Below, in pieces: positions 50,011 through 59,435 of a DNA stretch of 64,000 nt. Position numbers and translations under genes: made by a program. The notes beneath the pieces were generated by a model. The model did no database searches. It saw only the letters and a list, made by a program, of their open reading frames with translations, and was not told the DNA's origin. Source of the stretch: Planctomycetota bacterium. GTDB lineage: Bacteria > Planctomycetota > Planctomycetia > Pirellulales > Pirellulaceae. How positions within the stretch are numbered: the stretch's first letter is position 1; each line of letters starts with the position of its first letter. Location: positions 34,704 to 98,703 of the forward strand of contig JAPLNL010000033.1 of NCBI GenBank assembly GCA_026692905.1, in the 5' to 3' direction.

Positions 50011-50871
50011 ATGGCGAACGAAGAAGACTCCATTCCACCGATGCAGTTTTATGGTCCGACGGACAAGTTCGGTTTTGGCCAACTGTCGGAGATTTGGAGG
50101 ACGCGTGAGTTACTTTACAGTTTCTTCCTTCGCGATCTATTGATCCGCTATCGCCAAGTTGTCGTCGGGATCCTGTGGGTGCTACTCCAACCTCTGATGG
50201 GCATGCTCATCTTCATGGGGCTCTTTTTTGTGCTCGGGACCAATGCCGGAAGTTCGACGGTTGCTTTTGCCCCGATCATTCTGACGGGCATGCTTTGCTG
50301 GCAGTTGGTTGCAAGCAGCTTTCGCGATGCGACCGGTTCGCTGGTCAACTATCGGCACGTAGTGACCAAAATCTACTTCCCTCGGATGCTGCTCCCATTG
50401 GCGAGCTTGATGTGTGCTGTCTTTGATTTCGCGATTGGTTCCTTGCTATTGTTGCCGGTTTGCATGTTGACCGGGACTGGGCTTGTTTGGTCGACCGCTT
50501 GGCTGGCGATTCCGATCGCGATGTGGTTGATTCTGTTCTGCGCGGGATGCATCGCTTGGCTATCTGCCTTGAACGCACATTATCGCGACGTCGGTTATGC
50601 GCTACCGTTTGTGCTTCAGTTAGGCATGTTCGTATCGCCTGTGGTCTACGATGTGGAACGATTGCGCAGTCTCCTTACAGACCGGTGGGTTTGGCTTTAC
50701 GAAGCGAACCCGATTGCAACTTGCATCGGTCTCCTGCGATGGTCTTTGCTCGGTACTCAGTTGCCGAGTGTGCTTGGAATGGCAACGGCAGCAGGCATTA
50801 CCGTGTTGGTGTGCTTTAGCGGTTTGGCTTGGTTTCAACATGCTGACCAACAGCTTGCGGATCGGATATAG
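50011..50871 (+). CDS. ABC-2 type polysaccharide export permease (Wzm-like)
   Basis: 286 residues, six predicted transmembrane helices in the ABC-2 layout: RTRELLYSFFLRDLLIRYRQ and VVVGILWVLLQPLMGMLIF are the typical N-terminal amphipathic and first TM parts (residues about 31-70), with LPFVLQLGMFVSPVVY later. Such permeases export O-antigen, teichoic acid or capsular chains with a Wzt-type ATPase, which follows after 2 bp. It lies 14 bp after argS. Glycosyltransferases nearby fit, but no polymer repeat-unit genes are present here. Confidence 0.9.
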   Translation: MANEEDSIPPMQFYGPTDKFGFGQLSEIWRTRELLYSFFLRDLLIRYRQVVVGILWVLLQPLMGMLIFMGLFFVLGTNAGSSTVAFAPIILTGMLCWQLVASSFRDATGSLVNYRHVVTKIYFPRMLLPLASLMCAVFDFAIGSLLLLPVCMLTGTGLVWSTAWLAIPIAMWLILFCAGCIAWLSALNAHYRDVGYALPFVLQLGMFVSPVVYDVERLRSLLTDRWVWLYEANPIATCIGLLRWSLLGTQLPSVLGMATAAGITVLVCFSGLAWFQHADQQLADRI

Positions 50872-50873
50872 CC

Positions 50874-52184
50874 ATGAGTATCGAATCGATCCAACTGGAC
50901 AAGGTGAGCAAGCGTTTTCGGCTTGGTGCGACCAACGAGTACGGGCGGCTCACGGAAGCCATCGCAACCGGGGTAAAGAATCTCTTTCGCAAATCTCCCG
51001 AGGCGGCAGCCATACGTGTTCCTGATTCTTTTGCGGATCGAATCGAAGCGGGTTGGTTTTGGGCTTTGCGCGATATCGAACTCTCCATCCAATCCGGAGA
51101 AATCGTAGGTATTGTCGGTCGCAATGGTGCTGGCAAAAGCACGCTGCTAAAAATATTGGCTCGGATCGTGACGCCGACGCAAGGGCGTGTTGGAGTGCGA
51201 GGGCGAGTCGGATCGCTTCTAGAGGTAGGGACCGGTTTCCACCCAGAGTTAACGGGCCGAGAAAATGTGTTTTTGAACGGAGCCATCCTCGGCATGCCCC
51301 GAGCTGAGATTCGCAAACGATTTGATGAAATCGTAGCCTTTGCGGAAATCGAATCGTTCTTGGAGACGCCGGTAAAACGTTATTCGAGCGGTATGGCGGT
51401 CCGATTGGCGTTCGCAGTCGCGGCACACTTGGAACCGGATGTTTTGATCATTGACGAAGTGCTCAGCGTTGGCGATCAAGCGTTTCAGCGCAAGTGTTTG
51501 GGCAAAGCGAGTCAGTTGGGGGCACAAGGGCGGACGGTGTTGGTCGTTTCGCACAACCTCGCTGCGGTGGCGAATCTCTGCCAAAGAGCTGTCTTGATCC
51601 GGGACGGTCGTCTGGTTGCAGATGATGTCCCCGAACGTATCATCGACCAGTACCTTGGGGAAATGCGAGCCGGCGATGGGCAACGTGTTTGGGAGGATGA
51701 CGAATCAGCGCCGAGCTCACGCGAAATTCGATTGCGATCGGTATCGGTTACGGGAAACGGCTCGGATGCGCCGGCCAGCGAAGTCGACATCGATCAAGAG
51801 ATTGGAATCGTCGTGGAATACAAAGTACTCGTGGCTGATACGCCATGCTGCGTTCAGATCCAAGTCAAGGACGAGACTGGGGCGTATGTCTTCTGGTCAG
51901 CCAATGCGCCCTCGATGAACTTGGAGCCAGACCCATGGTTTGCGAAGCCACATCCGACTGGTACTTACCGAAGCGAATGTCGTATCCCAGCCAACTTTCT
52001 CAACGACACACGCTACTTTGTAAGTGTGCTTGTTGGTCCTGAGGTTGGCATCGTTTCTGTGCGACACGATTCGGCATTGTCATTCGTGGTCCACGATACC
52101 GGCGCCATGCGACAGGAGTACACAGGTTCCTGGCTCGGCCCTGTCATTCGCCCAAGGTTGAACTGGCGAACCAAGAAGCAGTAA
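50874..52184 (+). CDS. ABC polysaccharide export ATPase with Wzt C-terminal domain
   Basis: 436 residues. Walker A GRNGAGKST (near residue 82), Q-loop region LLEVGTGFHPELTGREN, signature YSSGMAVRLAFAV, Walker B VLIIDEVLSVGD and VSHNLAAVANLC. After residue ~270 a beta-sandwich Wzt-C domain follows (GIVVEYKVLVADTPCCVQIQ ... TYRSECRIPANFLND ... SFVVHDTG). The Wzt-C domain reads the terminal modification of the exported polymer, implying chain-end recognition. Pairs with the permease 2 bp upstream. The N-terminal FRLGATNEYGRLTEA segment is usual for TagH/Wzt. Confidence 0.92.
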   Translation: MSIESIQLDKVSKRFRLGATNEYGRLTEAIATGVKNLFRKSPEAAAIRVPDSFADRIEAGWFWALRDIELSIQSGEIVGIVGRNGAGKSTLLKILARIVTPTQGRVGVRGRVGSLLEVGTGFHPELTGRENVFLNGAILGMPRAEIRKRFDEIVAFAEIESFLETPVKRYSSGMAVRLAFAVAAHLEPDVLIIDEVLSVGDQAFQRKCLGKASQLGAQGRTVLVVSHNLAAVANLCQRAVLIRDGRLVADDVPERIIDQYLGEMRAGDGQRVWEDDESAPSSREIRLRSVSVTGNGSDAPASEVDIDQEIGIVVEYKVLVADTPCCVQIQVKDETGAYVFWSANAPSMNLEPDPWFAKPHPTGTYRSECRIPANFLNDTRYFVSVLVGPEVGIVSVRHDSALSFVVHDTGAMRQEYTGSWLGPVIRPRLNWRTKKQ

Positions 52185-52795: not shown

Positions 52796-53203
52796 CTACC
52801 GCCGGAGATTCCTAACCCAACCGAGCATGACCGCGAGCACAACGCCCACCACTAGAAACGGGCCTGTGATGTAGAGCGTCTTGGGTTTGTAAACAAACAG
52901 CCCGGCGGCAAAGATAATCGCAACGAACAAGATCGCTCCACTTGGTGCCTTCCAAAGCATTTCAAATCCGGGCCATGCCAGCCAAGTGCACATCAGAACA
53001 ATGCCAACTTTGCCAAACACATCCGATGCCAATGAGGAGTCTTTTGGTAAAAGCGATGGTTGGAAATGCAGCACAACAGCCAGCATCATCAACCCAAGTC
53101 CCGCAGCCAAGACCATCCAACGTACGTGCGCCCTTTCGTTGCCGACGAGATTCTGCTGCGACTTAGGTTTTGAACTGCCGCTACGATTCGGCTTGCCTGC
53201 CAT
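52796..53203 (-). CDS. Small four-helix membrane protein
   Basis: 135 residues from ATG 53203, sharing a base with the TGA of the upstream gene (TGATG). A basic, polar N-terminus (about 1-28, SGSSKPKSQQ) is followed by four hydrophobic helices (about 30-46, 63-81, 87-105 and 109-128). No family recognised. It is the last gene of the protease cluster and is translationally coupled to it. Confidence 0.72.
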   Translation of the reverse strand: MAGKPNRSGSSKPKSQQNLVGNERAHVRWMVLAAGLGLMMLAVVLHFQPSLLPKDSSLASDVFGKVGIVLMCTWLAWPGFEMLWKAPSGAILFVAIIFAAGLFVYKPKTLYITGPFLVVGVVLAVMLGWVRNLRR

Positions 53204-55188
53204 CAATAGGCCTCAAGCAATCGGAGCCAACGCTGTAACTTGCCAACAATCTGAGAGTCTTGCATTTTGGCCGCTGTCATGTCATCGGAGTGAAACGAAA
53301 CGCTACAGCCTACTTTCTGCGTTTGCTGAACAAAGTTGGTGAGCGTAGGGTCTGTACCATTGATGAAAAAGTGAAGTGACTTGAATGGCTCAGCGACTGG
53401 AACTCGTGCTCTCGACGGTACCTTGGCATTGCACAGCCACACTCCACGATAGGTCTCTGCACCTTGGATACCGGAGATTAGACCCGGCAGCATGCCCGCG
53501 GATATTCCGCCAATGCAAATGCGTCGTTTGTCGATGGTGTAATTATTGGAAACATAAGATCGAAGCCGCACACCAATCTCGACTTCATCCAAAGCCCAAC
53601 CCTTCTCGTCTGCCGACTGAGCCACAACAATGATCCAGCGATTCTCTCTTGCGAAAAGCTCCCATGCGTCAGCCCATTGCTTTTGATCTTGTGTTCCCGC
53701 TTCTGCGAAGATGATGAGTAAGCCGTGAGGAATGGTGTCGAAGTAGTTGGATGGAACAATGGCAAAAGCCTTGTTCTTGACGTCACCTAGCGGCAACTGA
53801 ACTGTCCCTTTGGCGCCCTTGGGCTCAGCCGGATTTTCGGGCAATGGTACTTTCACAATGGGCCACTCCAAATCCTGCTCAGGATGCGACTCCATCGTGA
53901 CCTTAACGCTCCTCGCTTTGCCGTCCCGTTCCAGCTTCAACGCGATCGGCTCTCGGTAGTCCAAAAATGCAAGCCGAGTATTCAGAGGCGACTTTTCGTC
54001 GATAGCAGATTCACCCACACTCACAATGGCTTCGCCGATCTCAATGCCAGCTTTGGCGGCCGGTGAGTTAGGCAGCACACTGAGCACTCGTGGCGACGCC
54101 AAGGGACTATTGGTGTCGATCACGACACCCAAAAAAGGCTCGCGATAGGTCGGCAACTCTTTGACCAAATTAACGTCAAACTGTTTCTTGGTACCCTCGC
54201 GTTCCACCTCGAATACCATGCTTTGCTCCGCATCGATTGGCCCCATGATGTGTTTGAGCTGCGAGTGCATTGCAACCGCTTTGAGATCCTCGCGTGTTTT
54301 GCCCGCTCCAACAATTCGATCACCGGCAAGCATCCCAGATTTGGCAGCTGGCGATCCAGGCGTCACACCACTCAAAAGGATCTCTGGTGAAAACTCGTCC
54401 GGGCTTGAACTTCGAAAGCCAGCCCGCCCAGGATAAATGTCTTCACCCCGCTGCAATTGAGGTAGTCGTTCCATCACGTCGACAAGCGGAACGGCAAAAC
54501 CAACACCGGAGTCGTACCACTGTTCGGTCTCTCCTTCGGTTGCTATTCCAGGATTCATAGGGGCTAGAATTCCCATGACTTTGCCTGTCAAATCGATCAA
54601 AGGTCCGCCGTAGTTTTGTGGCGAGATCTTGGCATCGGTCTGAATGGCTTTATCCCAAATGCGGCCTTGTGCGCTCAAAATCCCGACGCTGCGGCTCGCG
54701 ACCTTGACGTCAAAGGTTTTGCCAAGTGCGATTGCCCATTGACCAACACGCCACGCTTTGCGATCGCTGACAACCGCCGCTCGCAGCGGTTTGTCGACAT
54801 CGATTTTCAATAGAGCCAACTCGCGACTGTGGTCGCGTGCGACGAGCTTGGCCGCTTTGCGTTGTTCGTCAGGCAAGACGACGGTAATCGACGCAGGTTG
54901 GCTGCGAAACTGAAAAATGCTAGTAACAATCCAACCGTCTGGCGAAACAATTGTCCCCGTCGATGGTCCCGCCGCTATGAACTGACGATTGACGATCTCT
55001 TGGCCACCGAACGTCTCAACTTGAACAACGCAATCCTGAGCAGAATCCGCAGCCGCTTGAAAGGCTTGCTGCTCCTGCTCATCCAAAGGTGGATCATCGG
55101 CCAGTGAAGAGGAAGACATGGAAGCGACTAAGCTCGCCAGAATTGCGAATGCACGAAACGCCTGAAATGACCAGATTGCTTGGCTCAA
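53203..55188 (-). CDS. Catalytically dead trypsin-like/PDZ protein fused to a serine hydrolase
   Basis: 661 residues. TTG start at 55188 with AGGAG 8 nt upstream; the longer frame to 55341 runs through a repeat and is rejected. Signal segment residues 6-30. Residues about 45-245 align with HtrA/trypsin (SPDGWIVTSIFQF, LALLKID, GGPLIDLTG), but the triad is gone: His to F92, Asp to E123, Ser to Y193. Two PDZ domains follow (about 268-345 and 352-435). The C-terminal ~200 residues are an alpha/beta-hydrolase with nucleophile S563 in GGISAGM and possible partners D613 and H633. The fold assignment of the first domain rests on alignment by eye to the neighbour at 56365. It lies 140 bp after the second dead homologue. 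Confidence 0.78.
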   Translation of the reverse strand: MSQAIWSFQAFRAFAILASLVASMSSSSLADDPPLDEQEQQAFQAAADSAQDCVVQVETFGGQEIVNRQFIAAGPSTGTIVSPDGWIVTSIFQFRSQPASITVVLPDEQRKAAKLVARDHSRELALLKIDVDKPLRAAVVSDRKAWRVGQWAIALGKTFDVKVASRSVGILSAQGRIWDKAIQTDAKISPQNYGGPLIDLTGKVMGILAPMNPGIATEGETEQWYDSGVGFAVPLVDVMERLPQLQRGEDIYPGRAGFRSSSPDEFSPEILLSGVTPGSPAAKSGMLAGDRIVGAGKTREDLKAVAMHSQLKHIMGPIDAEQSMVFEVEREGTKKQFDVNLVKELPTYREPFLGVVIDTNSPLASPRVLSVLPNSPAAKAGIEIGEAIVSVGESAIDEKSPLNTRLAFLDYREPIALKLERDGKARSVKVTMESHPEQDLEWPIVKVPLPENPAEPKGAKGTVQLPLGDVKNKAFAIVPSNYFDTIPHGLLIIFAEAGTQDQKQWADAWELFARENRWIIVVAQSADEKGWALDEVEIGVRLRSYVSNNYTIDKRRICIGGISAGMLPGLISGIQGAETYRGVWLCNAKVPSRARVPVAEPFKSLHFFINGTDPTLTNFVQQTQKVGCSVSFHSDDMTAAKMQDSQIVGKLQRWLRLLEAY

Positions 55189-55207
55189 GCATCTCGCTCC
55201 TGGGCTT

Positions 55208-55285
55208 CGGGAGAGCGAGGCTCCTGCCGAGCTTGCGACGCCACGGTTCGGCAGGAGCCTCTCCCTCCCGAGTAATGCATTGGTT
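55208..55285. repeat. Composite repeat hairpin, copy 3 (inverted)
   Basis: Contains gcgaggctcctgccgagc and ggttcggcaggagcctc around a short loop, in reverse orientation to 39009-39130 and 43541-43665; the flank aatgcattactcgggaggg also matches. It sits directly upstream of a start codon and creates a false N-terminal extension. Confidence 0.88.
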
Positions 55286-55327
55286 GGTGCTTTCGATGAA
55301 AACATGCTTAACATCAAAGAACTATGT

Positions 55328-56368
55328 TTAAGGTCGAACATGGATCCGAATCAATTCTTGTCCGCGTTGGACGAGCACGTAAAAGGAATCGGCGCGGTTG
55401 ATCGTAGCGAGCATCTTTTCTAAGCTTTTTCGAGAGTCCGCCCGCTGGTCATTCAACAGCAATATCAAATCGTTGGTTTGCATACCGGCCCGTTGGGCAA
55501 TCGACCCTTCTCGGACTTGATCGATGAACGGCGGGGTCTTGGACAGCACGTCGGGGATCAGGGTAATACCAAGATCAATGATCCGATGTGGCTGAGCTAC
55601 GGGCTTGAGCTCGGACACTTGTGCGGATGCATTTCCCGACAAGATTCTGTCGACGGAGGATTTGACGACATCCATCGGCAACGCATAGTTGATCCAGATC
55701 CCAGCTTGCTCGTCGCGTATCTCTTTCCCCAGCACACCAACCAATCGTCCTTGGAGGTCAACCAAAGCACCACCGGCGGCACCCGGGTTGTTGGTCATAA
55801 CATCCAACACATACACGCGACCTTGATACAGAGATTTCGTTTTGCCACGGCGGGTTGTCAGCGAAGTCGATGCCATGATGACTCCTTTTTGGGCGCTGCA
55901 AGATTCGTTGCCGGTGGCGATTCCAAACAAATTGCTGATCGCGAAAACTCGTTGTCCAGTGGAGCCCTGGGCTGCTTTATTCAAATCAAAGCCCACCAGG
56001 CCCGCGTCCTCCAACTTGAGAATGGCTAACTCGTTCTGAGGATCCATCCCCACCATGGTTGCATCGAGTCTTCGGCCATCGAATGTAACGACCCGCACCT
56101 TGGCAACATCCAACACCGTACTCCAACTCGTCAAAATGTGGCCAGAGTTGTTGATGAGGATGCCGCTTTGATAACTTTCGAGGCCCCGTGCACCACCGGC
56201 ACCGTACAGCTTGACCACCTTTTCTTGGCTCGTCGCGATGAGTGCTTCGTTGTTGATCACGACGTTGGCATCGCGGTCCGCCAAAGCAAAGCAGGAGTTG
56301 ATTATGAACAACCAGACCACAATCGCACCACTGTGAATCACGCTTGTCGTATTAAAGTATTGCATCAT
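55328..56368 (-). CDS. Catalytically dead trypsin-like protein with PDZ domain
   Basis: 346 residues, ATG overlapping the upstream stop (ATGA). Signal segment residues 12-30 (HSGAIVVWLFIINSCFALA). The trypsin-like fold (about 40-225) is recognisable (SGILINNSGHILTSW, NELAILKLED, NNPGAAGGALVDLQG), but each catalytic residue is changed: His to S83, Asp to E113, Ser to A198. A PDZ domain (about 255-345) closes the chain (IAQRAGMQTNDLILLLND). It cannot hydrolyse peptide bonds by the normal mechanism and may be a regulator, adaptor or substrate-binding subunit of the intact neighbour. Confidence 0.82.
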   Translation of the reverse strand: MMQYFNTTSVIHSGAIVVWLFIINSCFALADRDANVVINNEALIATSQEKVVKLYGAGGARGLESYQSGILINNSGHILTSWSTVLDVAKVRVVTFDGRRLDATMVGMDPQNELAILKLEDAGLVGFDLNKAAQGSTGQRVFAISNLFGIATGNESCSAQKGVIMASTSLTTRRGKTKSLYQGRVYVLDVMTNNPGAAGGALVDLQGRLVGVLGKEIRDEQAGIWINYALPMDVVKSSVDRILSGNASAQVSELKPVAQPHRIIDLGITLIPDVLSKTPPFIDQVREGSIAQRAGMQTNDLILLLNDQRADSRKSLEKMLATINRADSFYVLVQRGQELIRIHVRP

Positions 56369-58191
56369 AGACCATTCCCTGCTGGCGCTTCGCCCACTTG
56401 AATCGAGCCGATTGCAATTGCGAATTGCGTCTCCAGGCCATATGCCAACCGGACCGTTCGCGGAGTTGCCCGACCATCGACTGCTTCGTACTTGTCGAAG
56501 AACAGCTCAACCGGGTCCGTTTGCTTGTCTGAGAAAATTTCGATAACCTGAATCAGCCCCGTTTCTGGTGACGTATAGACCATCGCATCGAAGTCACTCA
56601 CAGTAACTCGAGTCACATCCAATAGGCCTTCACGACCGACGACTGGGTTCCGGCCGAGATAAACGGCCTCGCCCATCAACCGCGGTCCGATGCGATTCCA
56701 TTGCTGCCAAATTCGCATCCCCATAAGTGCGCCAATGGAAGATCGTTGCTTAATCCACTTTGGCCAGCCTTGCGACGGATGAAGTGTTTCGGCTTTGTCT
56801 CCCAAGCGGAACGTAAGGTTTTCATCCGACAAAAGCATTTCCACAAGGGTGTTTTCACCCGGTATTTCGCCGTTGATCTTCCATGCTTTGGAGGTGTCAT
56901 GCCAACGGCCTTGTGCTACCTGTAGTGCAAGTATTCGATCCAGTTCCAGTCGATTGAAGTAATAATTGGAATAGCCACGCTTCTCCACAAACAGCTCGTC
57001 AACAGCATCCTTAGCAGCAGGCTTGACTTCTTTTGGAGCATCCAGCTTTTCTTTTTCTTTGTCCTGAGGCTTGCGGGGTGGCTTTTGCTGAGCCGATTCA
57101 CCCTTGATGATTTCCTCAAGTTCGCTCGCCAGGTGTAGGCTTTGCAATCGAATATGGGTTTCCACAACACCCGACTCATTTCGGAATCGAATCGGGATCC
57201 GCCATTGGTCCGGGAAGATGCCAAGTATGTTTTTCAACTGATTTGTGGTGGCAACGTCGCGATCCCCTAGCCGCAAAATTTCGTCACCGTATCGTATTCC
57301 TCGACGATACGCATCGCTGCTTTCTAAAATGTTCGAAACCGCAACCCTGCCACTGGTTTCGGTGGTCACTGTGAAGCCGAGAGTTGCATGGTCCACGACG
57401 CGACCCGATTTCAATTGGCCGAGAAAATTCATCGCTTGCTTGATCGAAATGGCGTAACCCACACCGACATTAACTCTCCCTCGCTTTTCAAAGGAACAGC
57501 GGCCGTTGATCCCAATTAACTCGCCACGAATGTTGAACAGAGGTCCACCTGAATTGCCTGGATTGATGGCCGCGTCGGTCTGGATGCAATCGCTGTACTC
57601 GAGGATCGTGCCGCTTGGATATTGGTAACGTCGAACGCCACTAACCAAACCGTAAGTGACCGTCGGCTGCAAATTGGTCGCCAAGACGAATGGGTTTCCA
57701 GCAGCAAAGCACCACTGGCCGATACGGACTGTATCGCTATCTCCGATCGCGGCGACCGGGAAATCCGTCCGCCCAACCATTTTCAGGACGGCCAAGTCAC
57801 CTGTTGGATCGATGCCCGCAACCACCGCGTCCACCATAGTGCCGTTGTTGAGGCCGCACCGCATCCGATGCCCAAAAGGACTGGACACGTGGAAGTTCGT
57901 GAGCACATATCCATCGGCTGAAACGCAAACCCCGCTACCTCCACCTTGGCCGTCTGTGCCATACACAGCTACCGTCGCGCGTGACGCTCGCTCCATGGCC
58001 TCGATGCGTTGATTCTGAGCATTGAGGACCGCATCGCTCGGACTCGGTGCGAACTCCGCTTTCGTGGGTTCGTCTTGAGCGATGCAAGTTACTTTGGTGA
58101 AAACAACGTTCCACGACAAAACAAAAACGAGCATCAGGCTCGTAGGTGACACGCGGCCATCGAACCAGTTCCTTGCGATTCGAACGATCAT
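56365..58191 (-). CDS. Intact HtrA-like serine protease with PDZ domain
   Basis: 608 residues, ATG overlapping the upstream stop (ATGA). Signal or anchor residues about 16-36. The protease domain (about 60-270) has a complete triad: H101 (TNFHV), D132 (GDLAVLK) and S214 (NPGNSGGPL). A PDZ domain follows (about 285-365, RRGIRYGDEILRLGD). A Lys/Glu/Pro-rich linker (about 385-425) joins a C-terminal domain of about 175 residues not seen in standard DegP (YYFNRLELDRILALQ ... VSDFDAMVYTSPETGLIQV). DegS/DegP-type envelope quality control is the usual role, but the extra domain and dead partners suggest a specific substrate or complex. Confidence 0.87.
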   Translation of the reverse strand: MIVRIARNWFDGRVSPTSLMLVFVLSWNVVFTKVTCIAQDEPTKAEFAPSPSDAVLNAQNQRIEAMERASRATVAVYGTDGQGGGSGVCVSADGYVLTNFHVSSPFGHRMRCGLNNGTMVDAVVAGIDPTGDLAVLKMVGRTDFPVAAIGDSDTVRIGQWCFAAGNPFVLATNLQPTVTYGLVSGVRRYQYPSGTILEYSDCIQTDAAINPGNSGGPLFNIRGELIGINGRCSFEKRGRVNVGVGYAISIKQAMNFLGQLKSGRVVDHATLGFTVTTETSGRVAVSNILESSDAYRRGIRYGDEILRLGDRDVATTNQLKNILGIFPDQWRIPIRFRNESGVVETHIRLQSLHLASELEEIIKGESAQQKPPRKPQDKEKEKLDAPKEVKPAAKDAVDELFVEKRGYSNYYFNRLELDRILALQVAQGRWHDTSKAWKINGEIPGENTLVEMLLSDENLTFRLGDKAETLHPSQGWPKWIKQRSSIGALMGMRIWQQWNRIGPRLMGEAVYLGRNPVVGREGLLDVTRVTVSDFDAMVYTSPETGLIQVIEIFSDKQTDPVELFFDKYEAVDGRATPRTVRLAYGLETQFAIAIGSIQVGEAPAGNGL

Positions 58192-59435
58192 CGTTTGAGC
58201 CTTGGTTGTTTCCATGTGACCTCTGTACCTACCATGAGCTTCGATTTGCACGCAACCACCAACTTTGTTTTCTTTTCAGGCTTAAGGGCAATGTTCACCT
58301 CGATAAAGTCGACGTTTTGAGCAAGTGTTTGCTCTGAAAGTTTTTGGTCATCTTGCCAAACCTCAATATTCAAATTTGTCCGTTGCGAACCCTCGTCGGT
58401 ACGCTCGACCTTGCACTGCAACTGAGAAAACCCCTGAGGAACGCGAAATATGTATTCGCCTGGACTCGGGAAATAAAGGTCGCGATCACCGGGCGATGAG
58501 GTCGACGAAGCTGTTCGCCCGCCCACAACGAATCTCGGTAAGAAAGCTCGATCTAAACTCGCAACAGGATTTTTGAAGTCAATCTGCTTGTCTGCCACCG
58601 CACTCAAGAGCTCGATTTCAGAAAGCCATCGTATGTTCGCCGTGGAGTAGTTGATGCTGATCAACTTCGTAAACGGAATCGAAACCGATTGCCCAAGCTG
58701 CGTTTTGAGTTCAATCGAGTCTGCTTTGACTGTGAACGATTCGGCCATCCAAACCGAGTGGTCTGTAACGGTAACTTCGATTGTTGGCTTCACACGTTCC
58801 AACTCCCTCTGAAACCATACCAGACCGGCTAGCTTCTCCATCGGAATGTCGATTTGTTGACCATCGAGATCAAACGTCACACTTGTCTCAAGCACCTGGG
58901 AAATAACGCCATTGATTCTGTCGAAAGTTTTCGTTGGTCTAGCAACGATGACTGCGTCTGAGTTCTTGGTTTCCAATATGGCCGCTTGCCAAGCCCCAGC
59001 CATCTCTGGTGCGATGGGTTTCAACAATGCTGCCTTCAGGGACTTCGAAGGGATAGCAGTTTCGCTACCGGATGCCTCCTTCAATAGCCAAACGGTGCTT
59101 TTTCCTGTGAGTCGAGTGCCGTACGCTTTGGAACCATCTAGCAGCAGAAGCTGAACCGGCGGAATTTGCGAATCCAGCTTGTTTGCGAATCGAACACGAT
59201 CGATTTCCGCTGCCGATTTCTCGACCGATCCAGCCTTGGTCTGGATGACCATTTTGCCAGCATCTGCAGAAACAAGCGTTCCGCTCACTGGCGGACCACT
59301 TAGTAGCGATACTGTCACATCCTCGCAGGCACCCGCCAAATGCATCGGTGAGGCGATAACGAACGCCATCGTTAGCATAAAAACGAAAGCCGCAACAAGA
59401 TTCTGCGATTGACGGTTAAGATTCATTGTCTGCAT
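58188..59435 (-). CDS. Exported beta-rich protein with NPCBM-like C-terminus
   Basis: About 416 residues from ATG 59435 (or 59426); a TTG at 59465 is also open. Signal peptide residues about 12-38, ending HLAGACED. Residues about 40-200 carry beta-type repeats (VSLLSGPPVSGTLVSADAGK, IQTKAGSVEKSAAEIDRVRF) typical of planctomycete exported proteins. The C-terminal ~140 residues (PGDRDLYFPSPGEYIFRVPQ ... NLNIEVWQDDQKLSEQTLA) resemble NPCBM carbohydrate-binding modules; assignment is tentative. First gene of the protease cluster, coupled to the protease by ATGA. It could present a ligand or tether the cluster to a glycan. Confidence 0.68.
   Translation of the reverse strand: MQTMNLNRQSQNLVAAFVFMLTMAFVIASPMHLAGACEDVTVSLLSGPPVSGTLVSADAGKMVIQTKAGSVEKSAAEIDRVRFANKLDSQIPPVQLLLLDGSKAYGTRLTGKSTVWLLKEASGSETAIPSKSLKAALLKPIAPEMAGAWQAAILETKNSDAVIVARPTKTFDRINGVISQVLETSVTFDLDGQQIDIPMEKLAGLVWFQRELERVKPTIEVTVTDHSVWMAESFTVKADSIELKTQLGQSVSIPFTKLISINYSTANIRWLSEIELLSAVADKQIDFKNPVASLDRAFLPRFVVGGRTASSTSSPGDRDLYFPSPGEYIFRVPQGFSQLQCKVERTDEGSQRTNLNIEVWQDDQKLSEQTLAQNVDFIEVNIALKPEKKTKLVVACKSKLMVGTEVTWKQPRLKR

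Follow-up and report, generated by a model that had tools for sequence, protein, structure and literature searches.

Why would a bacterium keep two HtrA-type proteases that have lost their catalytic residues beside one that has not? The question is raised by five open reading frames (ORFs) on the minus strand, in the order G1-G2-G3-G4-G5, at positions 52796-59435 of a 64,000-nucleotide stretch of a planctomycete genome (hereafter, the window). G2, G3, and G4 each carry a trypsin-like domain, and only G2 retains the catalytic triad. Known pairings of a live with a dead protease come from individual systems; in the present case, two lineages of dead HtrA persist next to a live one throughout a class and in further families of the phylum. 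The explanation favored here, at a probability of about 0.55, is that G2, G3, and G4 form one hetero-oligomeric envelope HtrA protease in which the dead subunits bind substrate and switch the active one. It is preferred because of the constant gene order (76/76 loci), the triad pattern, the co-occurrence of G3 with G4 (63/63 genomes), the three clades formed by the paralogues, and natural G2+G3 fusions.

Catalytic residues of the three HtrA paralogues

In the window, codon checks place H101, D132, and S214 at the triad positions of G2, and S83, E113, and A198 at those of G3. The corresponding residues of G4 are F143, E174, and Y244 of the long ORF, which become 92, 123, and 193 when counted from a TTG start. 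These are the residues on which the initial annotation had based its view of G2 as live and of its two neighbors as dead, and all are confirmed. Residues were then counted in rows from the loci above the score cut-off (68 for G2, 71 for G3, and 67 for G4). The G2 triad is intact in 68/68. In G3, the His position holds Ser (62 rows), Asn (7), or Thr (2) and never His, the Asp position holds Glu (45), Asp (20), Gly (4), or Ala (2), and the Ser position holds Ala (58), Gly (5), Thr (4), Ser (3), or Asp (1). His and Ser occur together in none of the 71 rows, the three G3 proteins with Ser at the nucleophile position (L002:7947-8978, L007:863-1927, and L105:6288-7328) having no His. In G4, Tyr replaces the catalytic Ser in 67/67 rows; the His position is Phe in 48, Tyr in 10, and another residue in 9, never His, and the Asp position is Met in 28 and Glu in 16. 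The replacement of Asp by Glu, proposed earlier for both dead copies, is thus true of the window but was rejected on these counts as a feature shared by G3 and G4.

A remote set, consisting of 18 remote loci and L010 and sharing part of its rows with the main count, has an intact G2 in 19/19 (in two pieces in L072), Tyr in G4 in 19/19, and no Ser in G3 in 19/19; G3 of L073 and L075 retains His, with Gln instead of Ser. Alignment A6, with 76 G4 rows, has Tyr in 76/76, and His and Asp at their positions in one row each. No triad restored by residues elsewhere was seen for G3 or G4 in the alignments.

G2, G3, and G4 all match Trypsin_2 above the Pfam cut-off. PDZ domains score above it in G3 and G4 and just under it in G2 (23.0 vs. 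23.2 bits). The triad expected of HtrA proteases (family S1C) is present in G2 and absent from G3 and G4. Together with the structure models described below, the domain matches and residue counts support the earlier proposal that the fold was kept and catalysis lost in two of the three HtrA copies. Elsewhere in the window's genome, six further HtrA places that were fetched (L145-L150) keep His, Asp, and Ser; a seventh, L151, has a trypsin-like ORF with all three residues and a neighbor, with weak split matches, that lacks them.

Gene order and co-occurrence across Planctomycetota

The G3 profile was searched against 119 genomes of the family and a sample of 392 Planctomycetota genomes. At E 1e-40, it matches 108/119 family genomes, five of them weakly (below 210 bits; genomes G012, G029, G051, G096, and G100), and 63/392 genomes of the phylum sample. 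Gene order was compared in 88 loci, a set selected for G3 or G4 that comprises ten named relatives and 78 stretches around G3 matches. G2, G3, and G4 are separate ORFs in 76 of the 88, and all 76 agree in the order and strand of these genes; the order and strand of G1 to G4 are kept in all 63 loci in which the four genes were assigned. G5 is mainly restricted to close relatives of the window. The gene order, for which a search in other planctomycetes had been proposed, is conserved far beyond this strain. Five of the remaining 12 loci have G2 and G3 in one ORF (L069 and L073-L076); in the other seven, G4 or more is missing from the stretch examined (L092, L096, L103, L108, L128, L140, and L141). 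G4 is located elsewhere in genomes G422, G205, G223, and G476, which come from those seven loci, and in G456. L118 is the sole locus in which G4 is split into two ORFs.

Because ordinary HtrA proteins match the G4 profile as well (287/392 genomes at E 1e-40), G4 orthologues were taken by a gap in bits: 67/392 genomes score at least 287.8, and the next scores 231.7. All 63 genomes with a G3 match are among these 67. Of the four genomes with G4 only, three (G242, G335, and G365) carry next to it a G3 that is dead and divergent, and in the fourth, G308, the contig ends. In the window's own class, 38 of the 40 sampled genomes have both G3 and G4. A nucleotide pattern that represents the Tyr motif occurs in 84/392 genomes, although the reversed pattern used as a control also matches some genomes; in 56/63 genomes, as matched by hand, the motif is no more than about 2 kb away from G3. 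The recurrence of the live/dead pattern across the phylum argues that it is not due to chance.

Of the 120 G4 relatives listed, 23 are named "serine protease Do" (e.g., P0029, P0033, and P0041), even though Tyr takes the place of the catalytic Ser in this family; the label is thereby given to proteins without a triad. Two proteins of about 1500 amino acids, P0150 and P0159, combine HtrA and PDZ domains with what we take, from precomputed Pfam accessions, to be HEAT/Arm-type repeats.

Clades and natural fusions

A tree of 89 protease domains, computed with the catalytic columns removed by a quick method with Shimodaira-Hasegawa-like approximate likelihood ratio test (SH-aLRT) support only, separates G3 (28 rows), G4 (28), and G2 (27) into three clades with an SH-aLRT of 100 each. 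The G2 row of L072, whose domain hit is split, groups in the G2 clade. Given these clades, the loss of catalysis looks single and old in G3 and likewise in G4.

G2 and G3 share one reading frame in L069, L073-L076, and L159. ORFs of 904-1017 amino acids scored as G3 in L067, L068, L071, and L072 were rejected as fusions since they overlap G2 in another frame. AlphaFold models were made of single chains. For one G2+G3 fusion chain, both halves are placed confidently, with a predicted template modelling score (pTM) of 0.84; the yardstick, about 0.6 for floating halves, is our own estimate. The G4 model has a predicted local distance difference test score (pLDDT) of 87.9. In structure comparisons, the G4 and fusion models match DegP, DegQ, and DegS. 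The VIA-align rows lie for the most part within residues 80-396 (G4 model) and 39-365 (fusion), so the comparison says little about the tail of G4 or the additional region of G2. The multi-subunit complex suggested at the outset gains from the natural fusions, which favor a physical association of G2 and G3.

The esterase-like domain of G4

G4 had been credited with two PDZ domains and an apparently intact hydrolase. The PDZ domains are there, as is the nucleophile Ser in the window, yet this Ser is found in only 3/62 rows from the loci and 11/76 rows of A6, the window and its near kin having it. A working serine hydrolase was rejected as a conserved feature on that count, and while the dead protease sites stay dead across homologues, the hydrolase site, expected to stay conserved, does not. 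A profile of 30 G4 tails matches LC-Est1C (E 4e-14) and a PHB-depolymerase family esterase (1.1e-12); taken singly, the tail from the window matches no Pfam family. The glycines of the nucleophile elbow are kept in 56/62 and 50/62 rows. By hand alignment, there seems to be no conserved His opposite the esterase His, and position 684 is His in 7/62 rows and in the window. With Ser missing from most rows, the tail is probably a pseudo-esterase, that is, a third dead enzyme fused onto one of the dead HtrA proteins in most relatives, least surely so in the window's own genus.

The upstream neighborhood

Upstream of G1, two gene families on the same strand occur in 47/88 and 40/88 loci. Extending 13 loci further upstream revealed a recurring contiguous run of MoxR (AAA_3, E 1e-62), DUF58 (1.9e-46), BatA (5.8e-11), B, C, D, and F, followed by G1; B, C, D, and F have no strong families. 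MoxR is present in 4 of the 13, DUF58 in 6, BatA in 8, and B, C, or D in 10. The run is complete from MoxR in L165, L166, L169, and L171, which represent two families, and none of its genes were found in L167, L168, and L173, the last being from the window's genus. The MoxR neighbor passes the bpMoxR cut-off (41.8 vs. 27 bits), but AAA_3 is by far the better match. In many relatives, the module is the end of a MoxR-DUF58-BatA operon, which ties the pseudo-HtrAs to MoxR-Bat operons of unexplained role.

In the window's genome (G000), MoxR-DUF58-BatA-B lies on contig C26 (L180), C-D on contig C98, and G1-G5 on a third contig. The MoxR operon of the relatives is here divided between two or more further contigs, and the parts found there are retained. 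Downstream of G4, a BacA family gene follows in three loci (L102:9863-10675, L104:10265-11134, and L127:3068-3934). We take its product to be undecaprenyl-diphosphate phosphatase, and a link to wall synthesis is possible.

Organization of the locus in the window

The features of the block are listed in Table 1. The coupling by ATGA or TGATG overlaps reported for most of the genes was verified at the codon level for G1/G2 and G2/G3 (ATGA) and for G4/G5 (TGATG). The G3/G4 junction is looser. The long G4 ORF is open to 55341, a 14-base overlap with G3, but its residues 11-58 are encoded by a dispersed repeat with a hairpin-like palindrome (55168-55311) that has about 30 further matches across the genome. 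The repeat seems to have been inserted between G3 and G4, extending the G4 frame. A start at the TTG at 55188 agrees with database relatives of 660 amino acids; if it is used, the repeat separates G3 and G4.

Table 1. Genes and selected sites of the HtrA block in the window.
Feature	Positions	Strand	Description
G1	58188..59435	-	Exported protein, C-terminal NPCBM/CBM51-type domain
G2	56365..58191	-	HtrA-type serine protease, triad intact, PDZ, extra C-terminal region of ~230 amino acids; Trypsin_2 E 1.4e-29
G3	55328..56368	-	HtrA pseudo-protease, one PDZ; Trypsin_2 E 1.1e-19, PDZ_6 E 1.6e-6
G4	53203..55188	-	HtrA pseudo-protease, Tyr at Ser position, two PDZ, C-terminal esterase-like domain; Trypsin_2 E 2.3e-19, PDZ_2 E 1.6e-16
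Esterase-like C-terminal domain of G4	53203..53829	-	Nucleophile position S614 = 53500-53502
G5	52796..53203	-	Small membrane protein, three hydrophobic stretches; without Pfam family
Tyr codon replacing the catalytic Ser of G4 (Y244, long ORF)	54610..54612	-	Codon check
Catalytic Ser214 codon of G2	57550..57552	-	Codon check

G1, G2, and G3 have one N-terminal hydrophobic stretch each. None above the threshold used for these three was found in G4, so we infer rather than observe its export. The description of G1 as an NPCBM-like exported protein agrees with the present data. Its NPCBM match in the window is weak (E 0.003, below the Pfam cut-off), and 14/15 aligned G1 members, including the window's, match the domain, the best at 8.6e-40. 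Against structures, the G1 profile finds CBM51-type domains (e.g., 2vmg, E 1.9e-16). Beyond G5, at 50011-52184, an ABC-2 permease and an ATPase with a near-threshold Wzt C-terminal domain form a polysaccharide-exporter-like pair that converges on the operon.

Possible roles of the dead subunits

HtrA proteases form trimers, as with Deg5/Deg8, and are known for signaling between subunits. In the proposed complex, assembly would follow the HtrA oligomer, with its subunit places shared among three genes. G2 would be the cutting subunit and G3 its nearest partner, overlapping the G2 gene or even fused to it. G4, with Tyr for Ser and a mostly dead esterase domain, may act in substrate capture and gating, and the NPCBM domain of G1 could anchor the complex on a sugar of the surface or wall. 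Since the four genes end a MoxR-DUF58-BatA operon in many relatives, the protease probably serves a membrane machine of MoxR and von Willebrand factor A (vWA) proteins. A wider and more doubtful scheme would be an envelope machine encoded by eleven genes that predates the class Planctomycetia. In it, a MoxR AAA+ ATPase of the cytoplasm and membrane proteins of the vWA type would be coupled to a hetero-trimeric HtrA in which one subunit cuts and two do not, the last of the three bearing its pseudo-esterase as a fixed binding arm. Removing the genes in cultured planctomycetes would put the function of the pseudo-HtrAs to the test.

Other explanations place G3 and G4 further from G2. Each might form homo-oligomers of its own and work beside G2 as a stand-alone chaperone or substrate binder, with no common complex. 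Homo-trimers are common among HtrA proteins, and the protease-PDZ-PDZ2 layout of G4 is that of DegQ and DegP chains, which are also chaperones; however, the strict co-occurrence and gene order, and natural G2+G3 fusions with a confident joint model, make this unlikely. Fusions and co-occurrence also indicate a closer tie than would be expected if G3 and G4 were ligand or metal binders, connected to G2 only by expression regulation and a common pathway. This quite improbable role would suit the esterase-like binding domain of G4 and the NPCBM domain of G1, and it has a model in the MamO protease domain, which binds metal through surface histidines (PMC4794232). G3 and G4 could instead be adaptors that dock G2 onto MoxR-vWA membrane proteins and leave its activity untouched, as their PDZ domains and the MoxR-DUF58-BatA genes upstream in relatives might suggest, but the scattering of the parts over three contigs in the window's genome and the absence of the upstream genes from 3/13 extended loci leave this very improbable. 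Decay toward loss would account for the missing catalytic residues of G3 and G4 but was rejected, with hardly any probability left to it, on the open frames, the clade support of 100, the invariant Tyr, and the strict co-occurrence.

Some observations count against a hetero-oligomeric protease of G2, G3, and G4. G3 varies at its dead site (Ala, Gln, Tyr, Pro, Phe, Glu, Asp, and in some cases Ser); a fixed role would agree better with a residue as invariant as the Tyr of G4. The pTM of the fused chain is indirect, and no interface between the proteins is seen in the single-chain models. Two of the 40 genomes sampled in the class (G284 and G488) have neither G3 nor G4, so the module is dispensable in some genomes. 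As for the link to MoxR, this gene was seen in 4 of the 13 extended loci, and MoxR-DUF58-BatA is absent at the window, where G1-G5 are flanked by FtsK and an ABC transporter. Mutual binding of MamE and MamO, a comparable pair, was not detected in the work reported in PMC4794232, as far as its available part shows.

Comparison with known systems

The protease-PDZ architecture is common to the present proteins and to DegP, DegQ, and DegS. These are homo-oligomers of active subunits, whereas here one of three paralogues would be able to cut, judging by the triad. The model for Do family serine endopeptidases (TIGR02037; cut-off 416.2 bits) is not reached by G2 (207.6), G3 (104.6), or G4 (171.9). 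The Csp pseudoproteases of Clostridioides difficile germination are likewise inactive proteins whose serine protease family also supplies the live one that they act with; they differ from G3 and G4 in belonging to the subtilisin family, with another fold and setting. Inactive serine protease homologues are a known class in prokaryotes (42 among 966, in 91 genomes; PMC2605481), and PDZ proteins are many in planctomycetes according to a survey (PMC6411480).

MoxR AAA+, DUF58, and BatA-type proteins occur together, as in the ancestral neighborhood here, in the MoxR-Bat (aerotolerance) operons (PMC3557215), where Bat function is called elusive, and in the MoxR-vWA ternary conflict systems (Kaur et al., PMC7159879), in which trypsin-like peptidases are effectors with other partners. 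The available portions of these two papers contain no set of one active and two dead HtrA proteins. Among the open-license papers listed in the literature searches, the operon is described in no title or abstract beginning, in agreement with the initial annotation, which knew of no named system with this makeup.

The closest parallel is MamE/MamO, an active HtrA-type protease and a pseudo-protease of the same family. According to PMC4794232, target processing requires both proteins, only MamE has an intact triad, and MamO is required for MamE-dependent cleavage without catalysis of its own, which sets a precedent for dead subunits that act through a live one. Membership was rejected, the scores of G2, G3, and G4 being far below the NCBIfam cut-offs of 800 bits for MamE (101.1, 37.3, and 92.7) and for MamO (46.7, 41.5, and 31.5), and TauE has no Pfam match in any of the three at E 0.1. 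The operon appears to resemble MamE/MamO in its working without being a member. MamO has a TauE-like domain, whereas the dead proteins described here have PDZ and esterase-like domains, and there are two dead lineages, spread over a whole planctomycete class.

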